Shown piece by piece: positions 9,113 through 22,478 of a DNA stretch of 64,000 nt. The DNA comes from a marine actinobacterium MedAcidi-G2B (GTDB lineage: Bacteria; Actinomycetota; Acidimicrobiia; Acidimicrobiales; MedAcidi-G1). The translations under genes and the position numbers were made by a program. The notes beneath the pieces are model-generated. The model had not been told where the DNA came from. It did no database searches and was given only the letters and a program-made list of their open reading frames with translations. Position 1 is the first letter of the stretch, and each line of letters starts with the position of its first letter. Location: positions 124,001 through 188,000 of the forward strand of contig JUEO01000001.1 of the NCBI GenBank assembly GCA_000817115.1, in the 5' to 3' direction.

Positions 9113-10438
9113 ATGACGAATTTATCTCTAACTTTTGGAACCGACGGAGTAAGAGGCAGAGCAGGATCAGAACTCACTGAGGAAATGGTAAAAACGCTTG
9201 GGTTATCTGCTGCGTCATATTTGGGTTCAGACCAGGTAATAATTGGGCGAGATACACGCGAATCAAGCCCTTCTTTTGAAAAAGCACTTGCACAAGGTTT
9301 TAAAGCTGGAGGTATCGAGCCCCTCTTACTCGGAGTAGCTCCTACACCAGCAGTTGCTCATCTTGCAAATATTAGTGAAGTAGCTGGAGCCATGGTTTCT
9401 GCCTCTCATAATCCATGGTGGGATAACGGAATAAAATTATTTTCATCAGGCGGGCATAAGTTGGACGATGCTACACAGCTACAAATAGAAACCAGTTGGC
9501 ATGAGAACCTTTCAACGAGCGTTCCAAGAATAGAATCGTTTACTTCGATTTCTTTAGACTCATGGACTAATTCCGTATTGGATTCAACTACACATTTGAT
9601 TTTCGATGGGATCAAAATGGTTCTTGATTGCGCAAATGGGGCTATGTCAGAATTCGCCCCAGAAGTTATGCGCAACCTAGGGGCTGAAGTTGTTGTTATC
9701 CATAACAATCCCGATGGGAAAAATATTAACCAAGAATGTGGTGCTACTCATCTAACTTCTTTGCAGAAGGCGGTAATAGACAACGCAGCCGAAGTCGGAT
9801 TTGCGTTTGATGGGGATGGGGATCGTGTCATCGCAGTTTCTTCGGAAGGACAGATTTTAGATGGTGATCACTTATTAGCGCTCATTTCTGTAGACCGATT
9901 TGAAGATGGAAAATTAACTGATGACACAGTTGCCATTACGGTAATGGCGAACCTCGGTCTTCGGAGAGTTTTGAGTGCGAAAGGTATCAAAACCTTTGAA
10001 ACGCCTGTAGGTGATCGGTATGTCCTAGAAGCTTTAGAAAGCAACAATTGGGATGTGGGTGGAGAACAGTCTGGCCACATAGTGATATCAGAATTTGCGA
10101 CAACAGGGGATGGTCTTTTAACTGCAGTCCAGACACTTGCTGCTGCGCGAAAACGGGAGAGAGAGATTGGACTATGGGCAAAAGAGCTAGTTGAGAAATC
10201 TCCTCAAGTTTTAGTTAACTTGCCTGTTACTAAATCAGGAGCTGGCTTGGTTGAGCAAGCATCTGACTTAATAGAAGAAATGAAACAAGAGCTGGGTGAC
10301 AATGGACGCATAGTGGTGCGTCCTTCAGGAACGGAACCTTTGGTTAGAATTATGGTAGAAGCTTTAGATGAACTTGCTGCTCAGCAAGTCGCAAATTCAC
10401 TAGAGGCAAGCATTAGCGCTCTCGACAACACCCCTTGA
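9113..10438 (+). CDS. glmM: Phosphoglucosamine mutase
   Basis: GlmM converts glucosamine-6-phosphate to glucosamine-1-phosphate for UDP-GlcNAc and peptidoglycan synthesis. The 441-aa protein has the N-terminal FGTDGVRGRAG, the phosphoserine loop MVSASHNPWWDNGIK, the metal site FAFDGDGDRVIAV and the phosphate-binding RPSGTEPLVRIMVE. Length and motifs are normal. It sits upstream of the GlmS-like gene, so consecutive steps of the pathway are encoded together. Confidence 0.97.
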   Translation: MTNLSLTFGTDGVRGRAGSELTEEMVKTLGLSAASYLGSDQVIIGRDTRESSPSFEKALAQGFKAGGIEPLLLGVAPTPAVAHLANISEVAGAMVSASHNPWWDNGIKLFSSGGHKLDDATQLQIETSWHENLSTSVPRIESFTSISLDSWTNSVLDSTTHLIFDGIKMVLDCANGAMSEFAPEVMRNLGAEVVVIHNNPDGKNINQECGATHLTSLQKAVIDNAAEVGFAFDGDGDRVIAVSSEGQILDGDHLLALISVDRFEDGKLTDDTVAITVMANLGLRRVLSAKGIKTFETPVGDRYVLEALESNNWDVGGEQSGHIVISEFATTGDGLLTAVQTLAAARKREREIGLWAKELVEKSPQVLVNLPVTKSGAGLVEQASDLIEEMKQELGDNGRIVVRPSGTEPLVRIMVEALDELAAQQVANSLEASISALDNTP

Positions 10439-10499: not shown

Positions 10500-13400
10500 A
10501 TGTGTGGAATTATTGCAATTGTACGAAAACCAGAATCACGAGTCGCCCCTAATCCAGTAGACCTTCTTGACCTTATTGAAAAGGCAGTAGGACTTTTAGC
10601 GGGAGAAAAAATTGCTGCAGTATCAGAGGCAAAAAATTACTTAGAGCAAGTAAATCAACTTCTTCAAGGCACATCCGGGTTGTATGCCCTCATTGACAAC
10701 GCAAATTTGAGCAGAGACTTAAAAGAAAAGTTAGAGACTTTATATACAAAAGTTGTTCCAAGTATAGAACAAACACTTCATGAGGTGGATATAGATCCTG
10801 AAGAAGCAAATGAATTGATTGTTGGCTTGCGTGATTCAATTTGGGCAATTTTGCATGACCGAATTGAAACATTTAAAGGAGTAATGAATTTAGCATCCAA
10901 GTCTCATACTCCTAGTCGTGCCGGATATGCAGTTCTCCTTTCTATCCAACAAGCTTTAAATGCGATCGATCGGATGGAGGTAAGAGGAAGAGACTCAGCC
11001 GGTATCCAAATCACTCTTTGGGGCTATGCGCCTGACAAAGAAAAAAATATAGGTCACAGCGAAGACCCTTTGTACCGTTCTGGAGCCACGCATCATGTCA
11101 AAGGGAGATTATTACAGTTTGTAGTCAAAACTGCCGCGGAAATTGGAGAACTTGGAGACAACACGGCAGTTCTAAGAAAGAGAATTTCAGAAGACACCAA
11201 CCTCGCTGAAATTCTTACTCAAGAAAAAGTTAGAGGTTCGATATTGGGACACACCCGATGGGCAAGTATCGGCGTTGTATCTGAAGCAAATGCGCATCCA
11301 TTGGACTCAATTAGAGCAGATGGAGAACAAACACCACTTGTTACGTCAGTTCAAAATGGTGACATAGACAACTATTTAGAAGTTATTCAAGATAAATCTT
11401 TATCTATATCATCAGACATCACTAGTGATGCAAAAGTAATGCCTGCTCTTTGCTCTTCTTACCTGAGATATGGTGATGCGCCAAGTGATGCTTTTCGCAA
11501 GGCAGTTCAATCCTTTGAAGGATCTTTAGCGATAGCGACATCAATAGCAGATAAACCTAGCAATCTTTACTTGTCCTTGAGAGGAAGCGGGCAGGGACTA
11601 TATATCGGCTTAGGGGAAGACGTTACAGTTGTTGCAAGTGAGCTTTATGGAGTTGTAGAGGTGACTCCTAATTATTTACGCATGGATGGAGAGATTCCAG
11701 CGGACTTAAACAACGCAGTAACAAGTCGGGGTCAAATCGTTGAAGTAGATAGCGATAAGTCTGGTCTTTCAGAGGGGATCACAAGGTATTCATTTGATGG
11801 ACGGGTTCTGCCAATTGATGACCAAGAAATAAAAAGAGCTGAAATTACTACACGAGATATAGATCGAGACGGCTACCCGCACTACCTTCTCAAAGAGATT
11901 AGCGAATCCTCTGATTCAGTTCGTTCAACTCTGCGCGGATACTTAGTTAAAGACACTAATGGTGATTTGGATGTCAAATTAGGAACCTCGGTCTTAAGTG
12001 AAGAGTTAATAAAGAAAGTTTCGTCAGGAAAAGTTTGCAGAATCACTGTTATGGGTCAAGGAACTGCAGCTATAGCCGCTCAAGCTGTCGCAGCAGCAAT
12101 AGATGAGCAGATTTTGAGCAGTGAAATAAGAGTTGATTCACAATTAGCGACAGAACTGTCGGGATTTGGTCTTCGCTCAGATATGTCAGATACCTGCGTT
12201 ATCGCAATTAGTCAGTCTGGAACTACGACTGACACGAACCGCACAGTGGACTTAGTTCAAGCTCGAGGAGCACATGTTGTAGCGATCGTAAATCGTAGGA
12301 ACAGTGATCTTGCCGACAGAGCGGATGGAGTTTTTTATACTTCAGACGGACGAGACATAGAGATGAGTGTTGCGTCAACTAAAGCGTTTTATGCACAGGT
12401 AACAGCAGGGTTCCTTCTTGCGGTTTCTCTATCGAAGGCTCTTTCAAATAAGAAAAGTTCCGGTTATCTAGATCTTCTTGAGGGGCTACAAGAATTGCCA
12501 CAGGTTATGGACCAGATGCTTCTTAACAAGACTCACATTTCAGAGATTGCAAAGCGTCATGCCCCTTCTCGTCGTTATTGGGCAATAGTTGGAAATGGTT
12601 TGAACCTTATTGCTGCTCGAGAAATTCGGATTAAATTGTCTGAACTTTGCTATAAATCTATTTCTTGTGACTCAACTGAAGATAAGAAACATATAGACCT
12701 TTCTTCGGAGCCACTAATTCTTGTTTGTGCCACTGGTTTAGTTGGATCCACTGCAGATGATGTAGCGAAAGAAATAGCCATATATAAAGCTCATAAGGCA
12801 GTGCCAATTGTCGTTTGTGGTGTTGATGATCATCAATACGGAGAAAATCCTGATCAAATAAGAATCCCAGTAGTGCACCCAAGACTTGCATTCATTCTTT
12901 CAACAATGGCGGGTCACTTATTTGGCTATGAAGCAGCGAAAGCTATTGACGCTCAAGCAGATCCATTACGAGAAGCCCATGCTGCGATTGAAGGGATGGC
13001 TATTAGTTTATCTGAAGGCCAATCTCGTGAAGATTTGATGGAAGATCTTCGTGAAAATCTCTCAAGAGCTGAAAGTAGATTTACGCATGATCTTAGATCC
13101 AACGCCCTTGATGGACATTTAGAGGCATCCACCGCTTCTCGCTTAGCGGGACTTTTCCGTTACGCTCTCGGTGAAGTACCTCTTGAGTCTTATCAGCGTG
13201 AATATGGTCAAGTTGGAACCCCAGGACTTGTGCTTGATCGATTAGCTGAATCACTTGTTCAAGCGATTGAACAACTTACACGCCCCATAGATGCGATTAA
13301 GCATCAAGCTAAAACAGTTACCGTTGGAATTTCTAGAACTGATGAAACACTTCTTGAGACGCGTTTAACAAAGTTTGTTCTTGACTCTGGTTCTCCCCGA

Positions 13401-13913
13401 GGACAACTTAGTTATCGGACTCTAAGACTTCTTTCTTCTCTTGACCCTGCAGTTTCTACTTTGCAAGGTTTCACTAGGTACGAAGTTCAGGGATTAGATA
13501 CTGAGAATCCAACAATAGCCATTGTCGATCGTGGAGGGGTTTCAACTGAAATTCAATCGCGAACTGAAGACGATCCTGTTCTTCGCGGAACAAAACATAG
13601 AGTAGCGAGTGAACGAGAGGTCTTAGTTACTCGTGGGGCTAGAGATGATAGGACACTAATTATTATTCCAGAGGTGAAAGAAGCAGAAACAATCGGTCTT
13701 TCTTTGCTCCATGTTGAACTAGTTGAAAATTTGGATGTTGATGGATTACGGGGGGTATTGGGTGGCTACCACAACCGTTATGACTTTATTCGTGATGCAG
13801 TTTGTGAAACGGAGCCAGAATTAGATGAAACTTCGTTATCTAAAATCCGGGTAGTTGATCTCTTAGTTGATCCTGTTGGACTTATTGCAGATAGGTTGCG
13901 TTCCAAGTCATGA
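10500..13913 (+). CDS. Giant GlmS-like amidotransferase/SIS protein (1137 aa)
   Basis: This is related to glucosamine-fructose-6-phosphate aminotransferase, which makes GlcN6P from Fru6P and glutamine, but is nearly twice the usual ~610 aa. The N-terminus MCGIIAIV supplies the class II amidotransferase Cys2. About 130 mainly helical residues then intervene before the second motif MEVRGRDSAGI, followed by GHTRWASIG, NAHP and VQNGDIDNY. Two SIS domains follow (about 510-645 and 690-825; ISQSGTTTDTNR, VASTKAFYAQ, KHIDL). A C-terminal region of about 310 residues includes IDAIKHQAKTVTVG near 931-943, recalling the GlmS tail LAKSVTVE. A strong AAGGAGG precedes the ATG. Its position between glmM and acpS fits GlmS. 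Whether it makes GlcN6P is inferred. Confidence 0.8.
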   Translation: MCGIIAIVRKPESRVAPNPVDLLDLIEKAVGLLAGEKIAAVSEAKNYLEQVNQLLQGTSGLYALIDNANLSRDLKEKLETLYTKVVPSIEQTLHEVDIDPEEANELIVGLRDSIWAILHDRIETFKGVMNLASKSHTPSRAGYAVLLSIQQALNAIDRMEVRGRDSAGIQITLWGYAPDKEKNIGHSEDPLYRSGATHHVKGRLLQFVVKTAAEIGELGDNTAVLRKRISEDTNLAEILTQEKVRGSILGHTRWASIGVVSEANAHPLDSIRADGEQTPLVTSVQNGDIDNYLEVIQDKSLSISSDITSDAKVMPALCSSYLRYGDAPSDAFRKAVQSFEGSLAIATSIADKPSNLYLSLRGSGQGLYIGLGEDVTVVASELYGVVEVTPNYLRMDGEIPADLNNAVTSRGQIVEVDSDKSGLSEGITRYSFDGRVLPIDDQEIKRAEITTRDIDRDGYPHYLLKEISESSDSVRSTLRGYLVKDTNGDLDVKLGTSVLSEELIKKVSSGKVCRITVMGQGTAAIAAQAVAAAIDEQILSSEIRVDSQLATELSGFGLRSDMSDTCVIAISQSGTTTDTNRTVDLVQARGAHVVAIVNRRNSDLADRADGVFYTSDGRDIEMSVASTKAFYAQVTAGFLLAVSLSKALSNKKSSGYLDLLEGLQELPQVMDQMLLNKTHISEIAKRHAPSRRYWAIVGNGLNLIAAREIRIKLSELCYKSISCDSTEDKKHIDLSSEPLILVCATGLVGSTADDVAKEIAIYKAHKAVPIVVCGVDDHQYGENPDQIRIPVVHPRLAFILSTMAGHLFGYEAAKAIDAQADPLREAHAAIEGMAISLSEGQSREDLMEDLRENLSRAESRFTHDLRSNALDGHLEASTASRLAGLFRYALGEVPLESYQREYGQVGTPGLVLDRLAESLVQAIEQLTRPIDAIKHQAKTVTVGISRTDETLLETRLTKFVLDSGSPRGQLSYRTLRLLSSLDPAVSTLQGFTRYEVQGLDTENPTIAIVDRGGVSTEIQSRTEDDPVLRGTKHRVASEREVLVTRGARDDRTLIIIPEVKEAETIGLSLLHVELVENLDVDGLRGVLGGYHNRYDFIRDAVCETEPELDETSLSKIRVVDLLVDPVGLIADRLRSKS

Positions 13914-14275
13914 TTGGAATAGGCATAGATTTGGTTGACGTAGATAGGTTCAGAAACTCGTTATTGCGAACTCCTAAACTTAAAGAAAGATTATTTTGCC
14001 CTGAAGAGCAGAAGTATGCTGAACTTCAATCAGATCCAACTGAACGTTATGCGGCACGCTTTGCGGCTAAAGAAGCAGTCCTTAAGGCACTCGGATTAGG
14101 TTTGGGCTCAATTTCTTTTCATGATATTGAAGTAGTTCATGGCGTTTCGGGAGAGCCTTCGCTGCGGCTTCACCACAAAGCAATAGAGATTGCTTCTGAA
14201 GCAGGTGTGGAAAAATGGCTGTTGACTCTTACTCATACACAGAGAACAGCGGCAGCAGTTGCTGTGGCTTTGTGA
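13910..14275 (+). CDS. acpS: Holo-[acyl-carrier-protein] synthase
   Basis: AcpS transfers 4'-phosphopantetheine from CoA to acyl carrier protein. The 121-residue protein has the N-terminal metal-binding motif GIGIDLVDVDRF and the second motif RFAAKEAVLKALG. Length is normal for the trimeric AcpS class. The ATG overlaps the previous stop as ATGA, and the TGA overlaps the ATG of the next gene as TGATG. Confidence 0.96.
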   Translation: MIGIGIDLVDVDRFRNSLLRTPKLKERLFCPEEQKYAELQSDPTERYAARFAAKEAVLKALGLGLGSISFHDIEVVHGVSGEPSLRLHHKAIEIASEAGVEKWLLTLTHTQRTAAAVAVAL

Positions 14276-17022: not shown

Positions 17023-18210
17023 ATGGATTCAAAAATAGGATTCAATGATGGACATATAGACCTCAACGAAACGGCTTCTAGAGCGGAACGTTTAGGCCTC
17101 AAAGATTTGGCGATTATTGCTTGGAGAGATCTTGAAGCACCTGATTCAGGTGGTTCAGAAGAGCATCTGACCCAGGTTGCACGTTGTTGGGCTCAGGTTG
17201 GTTTGTCAACGAATATTAGAACAGCAGCGGTTAAAGGTTTACCCTCAGAGGTAGAACGTAACGGATCAAAAATCACAAGACGTGGGGGAAGGGTGTCTAT
17301 ATTTCCGGGAGCTGCTTTTCAGACATTGCGCGGTGGTTTAGGAGCAGCCGACGGGATCGTAGACGTATTTCAAGGGATGCCTTTTTTGTCACCACTTTGG
17401 ACACGTCGTCCACGTGTTGGTTTGATACATCATTGCCACATGGGAACTTGGAGTGATTTAGCTCCTATAGGGTTAGCTCAATTTGGTTATCTCATTGAAA
17501 GGTTTGTAATCCGGAAGGTTTATCAATCAACTCCATTAGTTACACTTTCTTCTTCTTCTGCAGCTGAGATCGTTAAATGTATGAAAGTAAGTCCACAACA
17601 ATTAAGAGTTGGACCAGTAGGTATTTCTTCAGATTTCACTACATCTATTTCCACCAAAAAAAATTTCATACCTTTAGTAGTTGCTGGCGGGCGGTTCATG
17701 CCACCGAAAGGGTTTGATCGACTTCCAGCAATCCTTTCTCTCGTGAAAGAGAAGATTCCTTCACTTAAAGTCGTCATTTTTGGGGATGGGCCTGAAAGAT
17801 CGACTATTGAATCGGAGATTCGGAAATATGCAGCCGAAGATTGGATTGATTTACCCGGATTTATTGAAAGAAAAGATCAGATTCAGCTTTATCAACATGC
17901 CAATTTGCTTGTAGCTCCTTCACGGCGAGAAGGATGGAATATGACCATTACCGAGGCGGCTGCTTGTGGGACGTCCTCTGTTGCTACCAAAATCCCAGGA
18001 CATTTAGATGCAGTTATAGATCAAGAAACTGGATTATTAGTAGAAGATGACATTGAAATGGGAGAAGCAGTCATTGCCACCCTTTTAGACGATAATCAGA
18101 GATCCGAAATGGAAATAAACGCAGTTAAGCATGCGAAAAATTTTCAATGGGACCATACGGCGGCAATTATTTTGAATGCACTATGCGATGACGCAGAAAG
18201 TCGTAAATGA
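17023..18210 (+). CDS. Family 4 glycosyltransferase
   Basis: A 395-residue GT-B glycosyltransferase, probably adding a sugar to a cell-envelope acceptor in the cytoplasm. The C-terminal half has the nucleotide-sugar site of group-1 transferases: VAGGRFMPPKGFDRL, VIFGDGPER, and the E-x7-E motif in SRREGWNMTITEAAACG. The N-terminal part has the donor-free Rossmann fold with the EAPDSGGSEEHL loop near 45. It overlaps the next gene by four bases (ATGA), so it is co-transcribed with the AftD-like gene. Exact donor and acceptor cannot be read from the sequence. Confidence 0.87.
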   Translation: MDSKIGFNDGHIDLNETASRAERLGLKDLAIIAWRDLEAPDSGGSEEHLTQVARCWAQVGLSTNIRTAAVKGLPSEVERNGSKITRRGGRVSIFPGAAFQTLRGGLGAADGIVDVFQGMPFLSPLWTRRPRVGLIHHCHMGTWSDLAPIGLAQFGYLIERFVIRKVYQSTPLVTLSSSSAAEIVKCMKVSPQQLRVGPVGISSDFTTSISTKKNFIPLVVAGGRFMPPKGFDRLPAILSLVKEKIPSLKVVIFGDGPERSTIESEIRKYAAEDWIDLPGFIERKDQIQLYQHANLLVAPSRREGWNMTITEAAACGTSSVATKIPGHLDAVIDQETGLLVEDDIEMGEAVIATLLDDNQRSEMEINAVKHAKNFQWDHTAAIILNALCDDAESRK

Positions 18211-21200
18211 ATTTGTTGAAGAAACGATGGAAAGAAATCGTCACGCTATTGACGGCATACATTCCAATATTAGTAATACGGCCTGGTCTATTAAATGCTG
18301 ATATTAAGCAGTATCTTCACCTAGATGCAGGATCCCTCTTAGCTAGCGCACCACAACTTTGGAATCCTGATTTTGGTTTAGGGACAGTAACTCATCAAAA
18401 CATTGGGTACTTATTTCCTTCAGGTCCATTTTTCTGGTTTGGTCAAACTCTCGGATTAGAGGATTGGGTTATTCAAAGACTTTGGTACGGATCAATCTTT
18501 GCATTAGCAGGTTTGGGCGTCCTTTCGTTATTACGACGAATTGCTCCTGAACACCCAAGCCATTTGACAGGGGTTCTCTTTTATATGCTCAGTCCTTTTG
18601 TGCTTGGACATATAACAGGACAGTCAGCCCTATTGCTTCCATTTGCTATTTTTCCTTGGCTCGTTCTTTCAATAGCTGCCGCAGTCACTAAACAAGGGTG
18701 GCGATGGCCCGCCATCTTTGCATTACTCGTAACAATCGCCGGTTCTATAAATGGCAGCTCAATTTTCTTCGTGATTATTGGAGCAGTCCTGTGGGCCCCT
18801 ATAGCAGTTATCTGTGAAGAGGAAATCTCATGGAAAGATGCGTTTAAAGCGGTCACACGAACCGGACTGCTCACTATTTTGACACAACTCTGGTGGATGA
18901 TTGCTTTAGCAGTCGGCGGATGGCATGGGCTTCCGATTCTCTCATTAACAGAAACATTGTTTTCTACGAATAGCACGACGAGCTCTTTTGAGATTTTAAG
19001 ATCACTCGGATACTGGTTCTTTTACGGCCGAGACACTGGGGGTCTGTGGCTCGCAGGACTTGCAGACCCTTACATGGAAAAAATATGGCTATTACTGATT
19101 TCCTTTGGGGTGACTGGTGTTGGTTTATTGGCAATGACGGTGGTGCGTTGGCGTCATCGAATGTATTTCGTTGTAATCACTTTGGTCGGATTAGTGATTT
19201 CAATAGGATCTTTTCACTATGCCGGAAGATCTTTATATGGTTCTCTTTTCAAAAAAGCAGCAGATTCTTCTGACTTAATTTTCAGTCTTCGTAATACTCA
19301 GAGAGCAACTCCTCTTGTTGTACTGGGACTAGCTGCTTTAGTAGCTGCGGCGATTCAAGCGGCTTGGACAAAACAAAAAAATATTGCAATCACAGCCAAT
19401 GTTCTAGTTGTCCTTGCCATCATCATTAACCTTTACCCTCTATGGTCTGGATCACTAATTGCTGAGCGTTTCCATCGTGAAGAAATTCCAAATTATTGGA
19501 CTGAAGCGGCAGAAATGCTTAACAATGATTCATCAAATACTCGAGTCATGGAAATACCTGGTATAGATTTTGCTTCATATAGGTGGGGTCATACGTTAGA
19601 CCCAATCACCCCCGGACTTATTGCACGTCCTTTTATAGCAAGAGAGTTATTACCGCACGGAGATGAATCGGGAGCCAATTTACTTGTAGCGTTTGACCGA
19701 AGCCTGCAAGAAGGATGGTTTGAACCCGAATCTCTGCCAGAGATTGCTCGAATATTTGGTGCAGGGGATGTGATACTAAGAAGCGATCTTGAATATGAGC
19801 GTTACCGAACTGCTCGACCTCAGCCACTTTGGGGGCTTTTGGACGACCCTCCCAATGGTTTATCAGCGCCCAAACAATTTGGAGATCCAGTTCCTAATAT
19901 TCCTCCAGAAGCGAACTCAATGGTTGATGAAATAGAGTTAGGCATACCACTTGATTCAGCGCATCCACCACCAGTTTCAGTGTTCTCCGTTGAATCACCT
20001 CTCAATATGATAAGAGTTCGCCCAAGCGACTCATCCTTAATCATTTCTGGAGATGGAGAAGGGGTAGTCTCACTCGCCGCAACTGGCTTACTTGACGTTC
20101 AAGACGGCCTTATTCGTTATGCCGGATCTATAGAAAGTGTAGAAGCCACTGATCGACTGGTAGTTACCGACACGAATAGAGAACGAGCCGAACGCTGGTA
20201 TGGAATGCATGCAAATGTAGGTCTAACCGAGACAGCGAACCATGTTTCTCTTTACCCAGATGCGAGTGATACAAGAATTCGCCCTGTTGCTGATGCTCCC
20301 GCGACGATCGCAGAATATTACGTATTTAACCAGTCAGGTGAAAATCTAGGTTCAGCTAAAGTCCAAGCCACAGGATATGGAAATCGGATTTTTTTAAACC
20401 CAGAATTCAGACCCGTTAATGCATTTGATGGAGACCCACTTACCTCATGGAGAATTTATGAGTACGGAGAACCAGTCTCGCCACGTTTAGAGCTAGTGCT
20501 TGAGACGCCTGTTTCAACTAGTGAAATAACTTTTACTCAACCGCTAGTTGGGCCACAAAATCGTCGAGTAAGAACACTCGCAGTAAGTTTCGACCAAGAA
20601 CCAGAAATTCTCTTTACTTTGGACGCCGAGTCCTATGTTGAAGGAGGTCAAACGTTTGCAATAGAAGAACAAGAATTTCAACAGGTCTCTTTTTCTTTTG
20701 TTGATGGGCTTGGGCCACCTGATCTTGCAGGATTCGCTGAGATTGATTTAGGAATAACCATTAAAGAAGTATTACAAGTCCCAACTGAGCTTCTTGAACA
20801 AACCAATGACTTAAATCACGACGTAGCGGTTCTTCTAAATCGGCATCGAACTAATCCAGCTGAGCGAGTCCGTCCAGACCCTGAACGCACAATTATTCGC
20901 GAGTTCAACACACCCTCTGAACGTAATTGGTCCTTAGAAACTACGGTACGTCTAGCGGACTGGGCTTCTGATGAAATTTTAGACAATGTGTTGGGAATCA
21001 CGACCGCCAATGAGGGTCAAATTACTGCAAGATCTAGTGACAGATTGTCTGGAGATCTCAGGTCAAGAGCACTTGCTGCAATTGATGGAGATCCGTCAAC
21101 TCATTGGAGTCCAGAGTTTCTTGAACAAGAAGGGCAATGGATTTCCTATACTCTTCCCGCCAATATCAAAGTTGACAAACTCGAACTTCAAATCATGGCT

Positions 21201-22478
21201 GACACAAGGCACAGTATCCCAACTGAATTAATTCTTATTGTTGATGAGGAAGAGGTATACCTCAATGTTCCTGAAATCGGACAACGTTCCGAAATTGGGT
21301 ATTCCCAGACTGTATCTATCGACTTACCTGACGTGCTTGAAGGAAGCGAGATAACACTCATTGTGTCAGAGGTAGAAGAGGTACAAACAAACAATTGGTA
21401 CACAGGCCAAGACATTGTTACACCCATCGCGTTAGTTGAATTAGGAATCAGAGGGCTTGAAGCTCCACCAATTCCTGAGATGCTGGATTCAGGGTGTCGA
21501 GATGATTTAATTCAGGTTGATGGGAACCCAATACCAATACGTATTCAAGGTCTAACTGATGACGCTCTAGATGGGCGTGGTCTAATAGGCAGCTTATGTG
21601 AGGAATCCGTAAGCCTTTCAGAAGGCCAGCATCTAGTAGAAACTACAGACGGCCGTTTCACTGGCTTCAATATTGATCGAGTAGTCATGGTCTCTGCCAA
21701 AGGAGGTGAAGCGGCTGAGAGTTGGTCAGAAATTGCAGATCCTATAGGGGCAAAAGTAGAAGTGATCTCTAGTGGCCGAACATCTTTAGAAGCAGAAATC
21801 TCTGGTCAGGAATCACCTTTTTGGCTGGTACTTGGGCAGAGTTTTAATGAAGGTTGGGTAGTGTCCATTAATGGAAGAGATATGGGTTCTCCACAACTCG
21901 TTGATGGGTTTGCCAATGGATGGTTTGTCGATTCTTTGGAAACTGGAACTCTAGAAGTCTCCTTTAAATGGGAACCACAGAAAAATATCTGGGTCGCTTT
22001 ATCGATCTCATTAGTTGGAATTTTGATATGCCTCTATTTGATTTACAGAGAACGTCGACAAAAATCTTTAAAACTTTGTTTAGACACCCCAACTCTCTAC
22101 AATCCAAGAGCGTCTTTGTATGAACTATCTCACAAAGAAGCTCTTATGACCTCGCTTCTTCTTGGACTTTTTGGCGCTTTCGTATCTAACCCACTGGTCG
22201 GAGCTTTAGTCGCTTGCTTAACTTGGATTTCTGCTCGTAACTTTAGAAAAAGAATTCTCCTTACTTTGTTGCCTGTGTTGGGTTATTGCGTTGGGGTGGC
22301 ATACATAATTTTCTTACAAATCAAGTGGGAGTATGAACCTGCGTTCTCATGGCCAAGTTGGGGACGCTCAGTTCATCACTTGGGACTACTTATAGTTCTA
22401 TTAATAGCAGCCGATGTAATTGTGGCCCAAGTATCTGAAAGATTCAGACGTCAAAGGAAGAAAGGTGAAGCACTTTGA
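18207..22478 (+). CDS. AftD-like alpha-(1->3)-arabinofuranosyltransferase family membrane protein
   Basis: This is a 1423-residue GT-C protein of the mycobacterial AftD (DUF3367) family, about the same length as AftD. The N-terminal ~430 residues hold many membrane segments. The first extracytoplasmic loop carries an acidic motif (NADIKQYLHLDAG, Asp32) expected for GT-C catalysis. A large extracellular region follows with at least two discoidin-type carbohydrate-binding modules, visible as AFDGDPLTSW near 741 and AIDGDPSTHW near 954. Four more TM segments lie near 1260, 1312, 1346 and 1388. AftD uses decaprenyl-phospho-arabinose in mycobacteria. Use of the same donor here is inferred. It overlaps both neighbours by four bases. 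Confidence 0.88.
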   Translation: MNLLKKRWKEIVTLLTAYIPILVIRPGLLNADIKQYLHLDAGSLLASAPQLWNPDFGLGTVTHQNIGYLFPSGPFFWFGQTLGLEDWVIQRLWYGSIFALAGLGVLSLLRRIAPEHPSHLTGVLFYMLSPFVLGHITGQSALLLPFAIFPWLVLSIAAAVTKQGWRWPAIFALLVTIAGSINGSSIFFVIIGAVLWAPIAVICEEEISWKDAFKAVTRTGLLTILTQLWWMIALAVGGWHGLPILSLTETLFSTNSTTSSFEILRSLGYWFFYGRDTGGLWLAGLADPYMEKIWLLLISFGVTGVGLLAMTVVRWRHRMYFVVITLVGLVISIGSFHYAGRSLYGSLFKKAADSSDLIFSLRNTQRATPLVVLGLAALVAAAIQAAWTKQKNIAITANVLVVLAIIINLYPLWSGSLIAERFHREEIPNYWTEAAEMLNNDSSNTRVMEIPGIDFASYRWGHTLDPITPGLIARPFIARELLPHGDESGANLLVAFDRSLQEGWFEPESLPEIARIFGAGDVILRSDLEYERYRTARPQPLWGLLDDPPNGLSAPKQFGDPVPNIPPEANSMVDEIELGIPLDSAHPPPVSVFSVESPLNMIRVRPSDSSLIISGDGEGVVSLAATGLLDVQDGLIRYAGSIESVEATDRLVVTDTNRERAERWYGMHANVGLTETANHVSLYPDASDTRIRPVADAPATIAEYYVFNQSGENLGSAKVQATGYGNRIFLNPEFRPVNAFDGDPLTSWRIYEYGEPVSPRLELVLETPVSTSEITFTQPLVGPQNRRVRTLAVSFDQEPEILFTLDAESYVEGGQTFAIEEQEFQQVSFSFVDGLGPPDLAGFAEIDLGITIKEVLQVPTELLEQTNDLNHDVAVLLNRHRTNPAERVRPDPERTIIREFNTPSERNWSLETTVRLADWASDEILDNVLGITTANEGQITARSSDRLSGDLRSRALAAIDGDPSTHWSPEFLEQEGQWISYTLPANIKVDKLELQIMADTRHSIPTELILIVDEEEVYLNVPEIGQRSEIGYSQTVSIDLPDVLEGSEITLIVSEVEEVQTNNWYTGQDIVTPIALVELGIRGLEAPPIPEMLDSGCRDDLIQVDGNPIPIRIQGLTDDALDGRGLIGSLCEESVSLSEGQHLVETTDGRFTGFNIDRVVMVSAKGGEAAESWSEIADPIGAKVEVISSGRTSLEAEISGQESPFWLVLGQSFNEGWVVSINGRDMGSPQLVDGFANGWFVDSLETGTLEVSFKWEPQKNIWVALSISLVGILICLYLIYRERRQKSLKLCLDTPTLYNPRASLYELSHKEALMTSLLLGLFGAFVSNPLVGALVACLTWISARNFRKRILLTLLPVLGYCVGVAYIIFLQIKWEYEPAFSWPSWGRSVHHLGLLIVLLIAADVIVAQVSERFRRQRKKGEAL

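Follow-up and report, generated by a model that had tools for sequence, protein, structure and literature searches.

What is encoded between glmM and acpS, at the position of glmS, in the marine actinobacterium MedAcidi-G2B? The window analysed here (64,000 nucleotides; positions 124,001 to 188,000 of contig JUEO01000001.1) carries at 10500-13913 on the forward strand a GlmS-like open reading frame whose product, at 1137 residues, is nearly double the normal length of GlmS (about 610). Both the position and the length had been pointed out in a first-pass annotation of the DNA, and both hold. GlmS, the glucosamine-6-phosphate (GlcN6P) synthase, is an essential enzyme that stands at the entry to cell-wall synthesis, where it produces the first amino sugar; as far as we are aware, it had been regarded as varying very little among bacteria. 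We consider it very probable, from sequence comparison, that the protein is a divergent, enlarged GlcN6P synthase that stands in place of canonical GlmS, its added modules probably serving regulation or assembly.

Conservation of the catalytic core

Residues 242-820 of the window protein align with residues 62-597 of GlmS over 529 columns (hhalign against an alignment of 15 canonical GlmS from the same order; probability 100%, E 5.6e-58, 27% identity), and a phmmer search of the PDB matches E. coli GlmS (E 6e-27). Pfam detects just GATase_6 and one SIS domain (514-642), and the curated glmS models match with E values of 1e-75 and about 3e-67, yet their scores come to roughly one half to two thirds of what the cut-offs require. 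The start codon is anchored by an MCGI block common to all relatives, and the architecture is kept in 44 full-length relatives at 45-96% identity. The parts of the gene that correspond to GlmS, all on the forward strand, are as follows.

10500-13913, forward: long GlmS-like gene, 1137 residues, ATG start, MCGII N-terminus (open reading frame; E. coli GlmS match; hhalign 100%)
10503-10505, forward: Cys2, N-terminal nucleophile of the class II glutaminase, invariant in the alignment
10983-11006, forward: RGRDSAGI glutaminase motif (162-169), with R162, G163, R164, D165, S166 and G168 invariant
11229-11699, forward: glutaminase (GATase class II) core (244-400) with HTRWAS, NAHP, NGD and D310 (Pfam GATase_6; invariant R253, W254, H266, N286, G287, D310)
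11868-12449, forward: SIS1 isomerase half (457-650) with SQSGTT and SVASTKAF (Pfam SIS at 514-642; invariant S571, Q572, S573, S626)
12450-12959, forward: SIS2 isomerase half (651-820) with K712, E715 and H731, equivalent to E. coli K485, E488 and H504 (PDB phmmer, alignment, hhalign)

The glutaminase residues by which the GlmS/GFAT superfamily is recognised are all present: Cys2, whose retention had been noted earlier, R253 and W254 (within HTRWAS, residues 251-256), H266, N286, G287 and D310 are invariant in 22 diverse members (the last six corresponding to E. coli R73, W74, H86, N98, G99 and D123). Likewise S571, Q572, S573, K712, E715 and H731 are invariant, and the hhalign match spans both SIS halves. 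In human GFAT-1 the residues K558, E561, H577 and K676, equivalent to E. coli K485, E488, H504 and K603, are described as catalytic residues that E. coli and humans have in common (PMC7000685). When the AlphaFold2 model was superposed on known structures, as the first-pass annotation had proposed for E. coli GlmS, it matched the isomerase domains of GlmS and GFAT with Z about 30 and the full-length enzymes with Z about 28. The full-length model has a mean predicted local distance difference test (pLDDT) score of 56.6 (alignment of 9 rows), and residues 818-1137 modelled alone have 63.3.

A probable internal catalytic tail

About 317 residues come after the second SIS domain, so the length of the C-terminal extension reported earlier (some 310 residues) stands, but the idea of a single appended extension does not, as the AKTVTV catalytic tail (937-942) lies inside it. 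The region consists of a helical insert of ~105 residues, the relocated tail and a new domain of ~190 residues.

12960-13274, forward: helical insert 2 (821-925), separating SIS2 from the catalytic tail (alignment, AlphaFold2)
13275-13337, forward: relocated catalytic C-tail LTRPIDAIKHQAKTVTVGISR (926-946), with Lys938 as the equivalent of E. coli Lys603 (conservation, canonical tails RNLAKTVTVE, truncated relative L112)
13338-13910, forward: new alpha/beta C-terminal domain (947-1137), confined to long GlmS among the genomes searched; for the window protein neither Pfam nor the PDB sequences gave a match

The canonical GlmS chain ends within about 15 residues of SIS2, in (D/N)xDxPRNLAKTVTVE. 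In the window protein SIS2 is followed by IDAQADPLREAHAAIE, which occupies the tail position without the lysine, then by helices, LTRPIDAIKHQAKTVTVGISR and ~190 further residues. No other part of long GlmS is as conserved as this tail block, which has 19 of its 21 positions at least 98% identical across 45 sequences. AKTVTV is identical in every letter to most canonical tails and is present in all full-length members, internally and not at the terminus. Scoring with a canonical tail profile (BLOSUM) placed the tail site as the best match within the whole protein in 44 of the 45 long proteins, and as the second best in the window protein itself.

Lys938 is the sole lysine after SIS2 that is invariant in all members examined; Lys934 is replaced by Arg in some relatives, while Lys938 is always Lys. 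It is also kept in a truncated relative (L112 in genome G085, L112:2353-5517), whose protein stops at ...RPIDAIRHQAKTVTVGISRR, right past the tail, and has lost the C-terminal domain. Because the tail is conserved, Lys938 is invariant and the truncated protein retains it, Lys938 is taken as the probable equivalent of E. coli Lys603 and human GFAT-1 Lys676. In the AlphaFold2 superposition, residues near 935-943 land on the C-tail region of solved GlmS and GFAT structures, although local pLDDT is low. acpS was undetected beside the truncated gene; L115, from a congener of L112, carries the full-length form.

Occurrence in place of canonical GlmS

The first-pass annotation suggested looking for a normal glmS elsewhere in the genome. 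The window genome, a draft of 1.44 Mb in 28 contigs that is 85% complete, contains one SIS gene and no canonical GlmS. MurA is present, and UDP-N-acetylglucosamine (UDP-GlcNAc) is therefore needed. Across 148 genomes of the order, counting the long form by its C-terminal domain and canonical GlmS by matches above the cut-off, 93 carry the long form, 51 carry canonical GlmS and none carries both (P about 2e-35 under independence, a guide only, as the species are related). The two kinds separate cleanly by family except in f30, which has both, in different genera. Four genomes remain: G085, with the truncated long form; G103, which is 74% complete and has a canonical fragment; and G035 and G055, with neither kind. 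In G035 (98% complete) and G055 there is just a GATase-only match of about 500-545 residues, probably PurF, and these organisms may be amino-sugar auxotrophs or reflect an assembly gap.

Long and canonical glmS share one neighbourhood, rpsI-glmM-X-acpS-nnrD, which in the window reads rplM-rpsI-glmM-[long glmS]-acpS-nnrD-alr, with the following immediate neighbours.

9113-10438, forward: glmM, the next pathway enzyme, an upstream conserved neighbour
13910-14275, forward: acpS, with a 4-base overlap with the stop of long glmS

More widely, the C-terminal domain was found in 31 of 396 genomes of the phylum; two of these belong to the class but to different orders, and others represent at least four families from beyond the class. 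When 11 genomes outside the order were rechecked, one (G188) had both kinds of GlmS. A tree of the shared core places the long forms in one clade on a very long branch, with members from outside the class nested within the diversity of the order (no outgroup was included), as expected if the gene had been transferred horizontally. Outside the class, three long glmS genes (L117, L118 and L121) lie away from glmM and acpS, unlike those of the order, an arrangement that fits transfer between lineages. Named records with the long form come from Acidimicrobiales, other marine actinobacteria and one entry labelled Dehalococcoidia, 53% identical and near an actinobacterial contig; this last (L005, PBPE01000075.1) encodes a marine actinobacterial-type long GlmS, and the bin or contig is probably mislabelled. 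No relative of long GlmS was found in the viral contigs searched, and no description of a long GlmS in Acidimicrobiia was found in openly licensed papers.

Proposed mechanism

Catalysis by long GlmS is well supported by its predicted active-site residues, and because all glutaminase and isomerase residues are kept, the product is most likely GlcN6P, formed by the usual ammonia channelling. With the steps taken from established GlmS/GFAT chemistry, Cys2 would hydrolyse glutamine, and the ammonia would travel to the isomerase site through a channel gated by Trp254. There the ring of fructose-6-phosphate would be opened, aided by His731 of the partner subunit, and the opened sugar would be held through Lys938 as Schiff-base lysine and then aminated. 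Glu715 would isomerise the aminated sugar to GlcN6P, which the neighbouring GlmM would convert.

More speculatively, the two inserts and the C-terminal domain may together surround both active sites as an accessory layer, which might set the oligomeric state, allosteric (feedback) control, or both. In GlmS the free C-terminal tail, with Trp74, helps to form the ammonia channel (PMC7948480). Since the tail of the long form is anchored at both sides by large modules, coupling between these modules and the tail is plausible. As the tail has insert 2 on one side and the C-terminal domain on the other, it is conceivable that a ligand bound at either could shift the tail and so open or close the channel. 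A regulatory role of the added parts is plausible, and we put forward as a tentative proposal, quite possible if short of probable, that large GlmS is the sole GlcN6P synthase in much of the lineage and that its inserts and C-terminal domain act as an allosteric valve gripping the tail. We know of no control of this type in bacterial GlmS.

Accessory segments

By sequence and predicted structure, the added segments of the N-terminal half are as follows.

10527-10973, forward: helical insert 1 (residues 10-158), from strand 1 to RGRDSAGI, the least conserved part (AlphaFold2 helices; without Pfam domain)
11010-11228, forward: expanded segment (171-243) with a conserved AEIGELGDNT motif, about 45 residues beyond canonical GlmS (alignment)

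Residues 1-9 form the first glutaminase strand, including Cys2. The gap from this strand to R162-G-R-D-S-A-G is about 150 residues, compared with about 25 in canonical GlmS, and the RGRDSAGI block begins at residue 157-191 across 43 family members. In the AlphaFold2 model insert 1 is entirely helical (H19-34 ... H140-158), with pLDDT mostly 65-83, in agreement with the earlier description of a helical insert that splits the first amidotransferase strand from RGRDSAGI. The ~45-residue expansion sits between RGRDSAGI and HTRWA, and smaller ones occur in the linker between glutaminase and isomerase. Pfam searches with the inserts and C-terminal domain gave scattered weak matches, the best to DUF7124 in 3 of 22 members (6e-4); the window protein was not among them, and these matches were not taken as homology.

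The C-terminal domain profile had no match among PDB sequences, and Foldseek returned none at E<=0.001. The best VIA fold match of its model was to 7jsr 174-360 (Z 7.6, root-mean-square deviation 4.9, 162 residues aligned, 7% identity), with Z in the background range; several PAS/Cache structures matched at Z 5-5.6. Given the low confidence of the models, these fold matches are weak leads, and they give a weak hint of a PAS/ACT-like fold. In G035 and G119 C34 the C-terminal profile also matched weakly (E 5e-4 and 9e-4), but the open reading frames concerned have no tblastn similarity to the long protein and were dropped.

It is possible, though in our judgement rather doubtful, that the protein is a GlcN6P synthase whose added regions are purely structural, serving assembly or stability of a larger oligomer and sensing no ligand. 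The weak conservation of insert 1 (mean top-residue frequency 0.47), the plain helices predicted for the inserts and the lack of a match to any ligand-binding family speak for this explanation, while 19 near-invariant positions in the C-terminal domain, among them D1010, R1021, K1032, D1049, R1051, P1057, E1058 and H1071, suggest a site and, with the weak PAS/ACT-like hint, argue against it.

Weighing the assignment

Another alternative is that a paralogue-like enzyme merely occupies the glmS place and makes a new product from a different sugar phosphate or by a different nitrogen donor route. An identity to canonical GlmS of about 25-27%, the very long tree branch, the missed curated cut-off and the expansions near the glutaminase site all point that way. 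Against this, long GlmS is the only SIS protein of the window genome, it strictly excludes canonical GlmS at the same locus within the order, glmM adjoins, and every residue that binds or processes glutamine and fructose-6-phosphate is kept. We therefore regard a different product, an option left open by the first-pass annotation, as improbable. A fusion artefact, or an assembly or annotation error of a normal GlmS, has a negligible chance even in a draft of 28 contigs, as the 44 full-length relatives that keep the architecture rule out chance or assembly error, come from many families and include single-contig genomes, and as the architecture also occurs in other classes.

Several observations weigh against the assignment as an enlarged GlcN6P synthase. 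The TIGR01135 (NCBIfam glmS) score of the window protein, 227.6 bits (E 2.7e-67), is far under the curated cut-off of 418.05 bits, and full-length long forms of the order score about 180-243 bits. Two E. coli residues are replaced in the window protein, His77 by Ile and Thr76 by Ser. The tail profile score of the window protein alone lies within that of shuffled sequences (253 of 5000 reach the best score), so the case for the tail rests on family-wide conservation and identity; around the tail and C-terminal domain the full-length model has pLDDT of 26-50, and the placement of Lys938 in the active site thus depends mainly on sequence. Finally, as one relative (L112) lacks the C-terminal domain, that domain is not needed for the core reaction. 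Because the curated score places the long form outside the TIGR01135 equivalog, the most fitting place for it is a sister lineage of the GlmS/GFAT superfamily, for which we use the name "large GlmS".

Implications

Most of one order, about two thirds of the species sampled, has replaced GlmS with an enlarged protein that has its tail moved inside and occupies the same genomic place. This provides a natural test of C-tail and ammonia-channel function in an enzyme whose tail is held within the chain, and a candidate case of allosteric regulation of GlcN6P synthesis in bacteria. It also calls for a correction of annotation, as the curated glmS model misses the long genes and a scan would call these bacteria GlmS-less.

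The pathway may be atypical further along towards UDP-GlcNAc as well. GlmU was looked up in G054, G128, G096 and G035, with G014, G095, G029 and G002 as comparison genomes. GlmU in the order is short, with open reading frames of 368-406 residues that match only 2-344 of the 452 positions of TIGR01173, under the cut-off, and the window's own family (G054, G128, G096) has no GlmU match at E<=1e-30. Elsewhere in the window, an open reading frame of 1423 residues (18207-22478) has many apparent membrane helices and sugar-binding-like segments, and its product has the look of a large membrane glycosyltransferase involved in building the cell envelope.

Relation to known enzymes

The long form shares with canonical bacterial GlmS (TIGR01135; E. 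coli 1jxa, 2j6h) the order of its parts (class II glutaminase, SIS, SIS, Lys-bearing tail), the catalytic residues and the glmM-glmS-acpS gene position, but differs in carrying two helical inserts (about 135 and 105 residues), an internal tail and a ~190-residue C-terminal domain. Eukaryotic GFAT-1 and GFAT-2 (6r4e, 6zmj) are also enlarged GlmS homologues, whose regulation is reportedly influenced by an extra internal loop of 46 residues and by the linker (PMC7000685, PMC7948480). In contrast to the long form, the GFAT loop is short and placed elsewhere, the chain ends with the tail as in E. coli GlmS, and such helical inserts and an extra C-terminal domain are absent. NagB-II and other double-SIS deaminases and isomerases (8eym, 2cb0) share the isomerase domain fold (Z about 21-24) but have no glutaminase domain and run without Cys2-dependent glutamine hydrolysis. 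The best fold match of the C-terminal domain, the mycobacterial large glutamate dehydrogenase (7jsr; PMC8175468), is unrelated in catalysis, and no homology is claimed.
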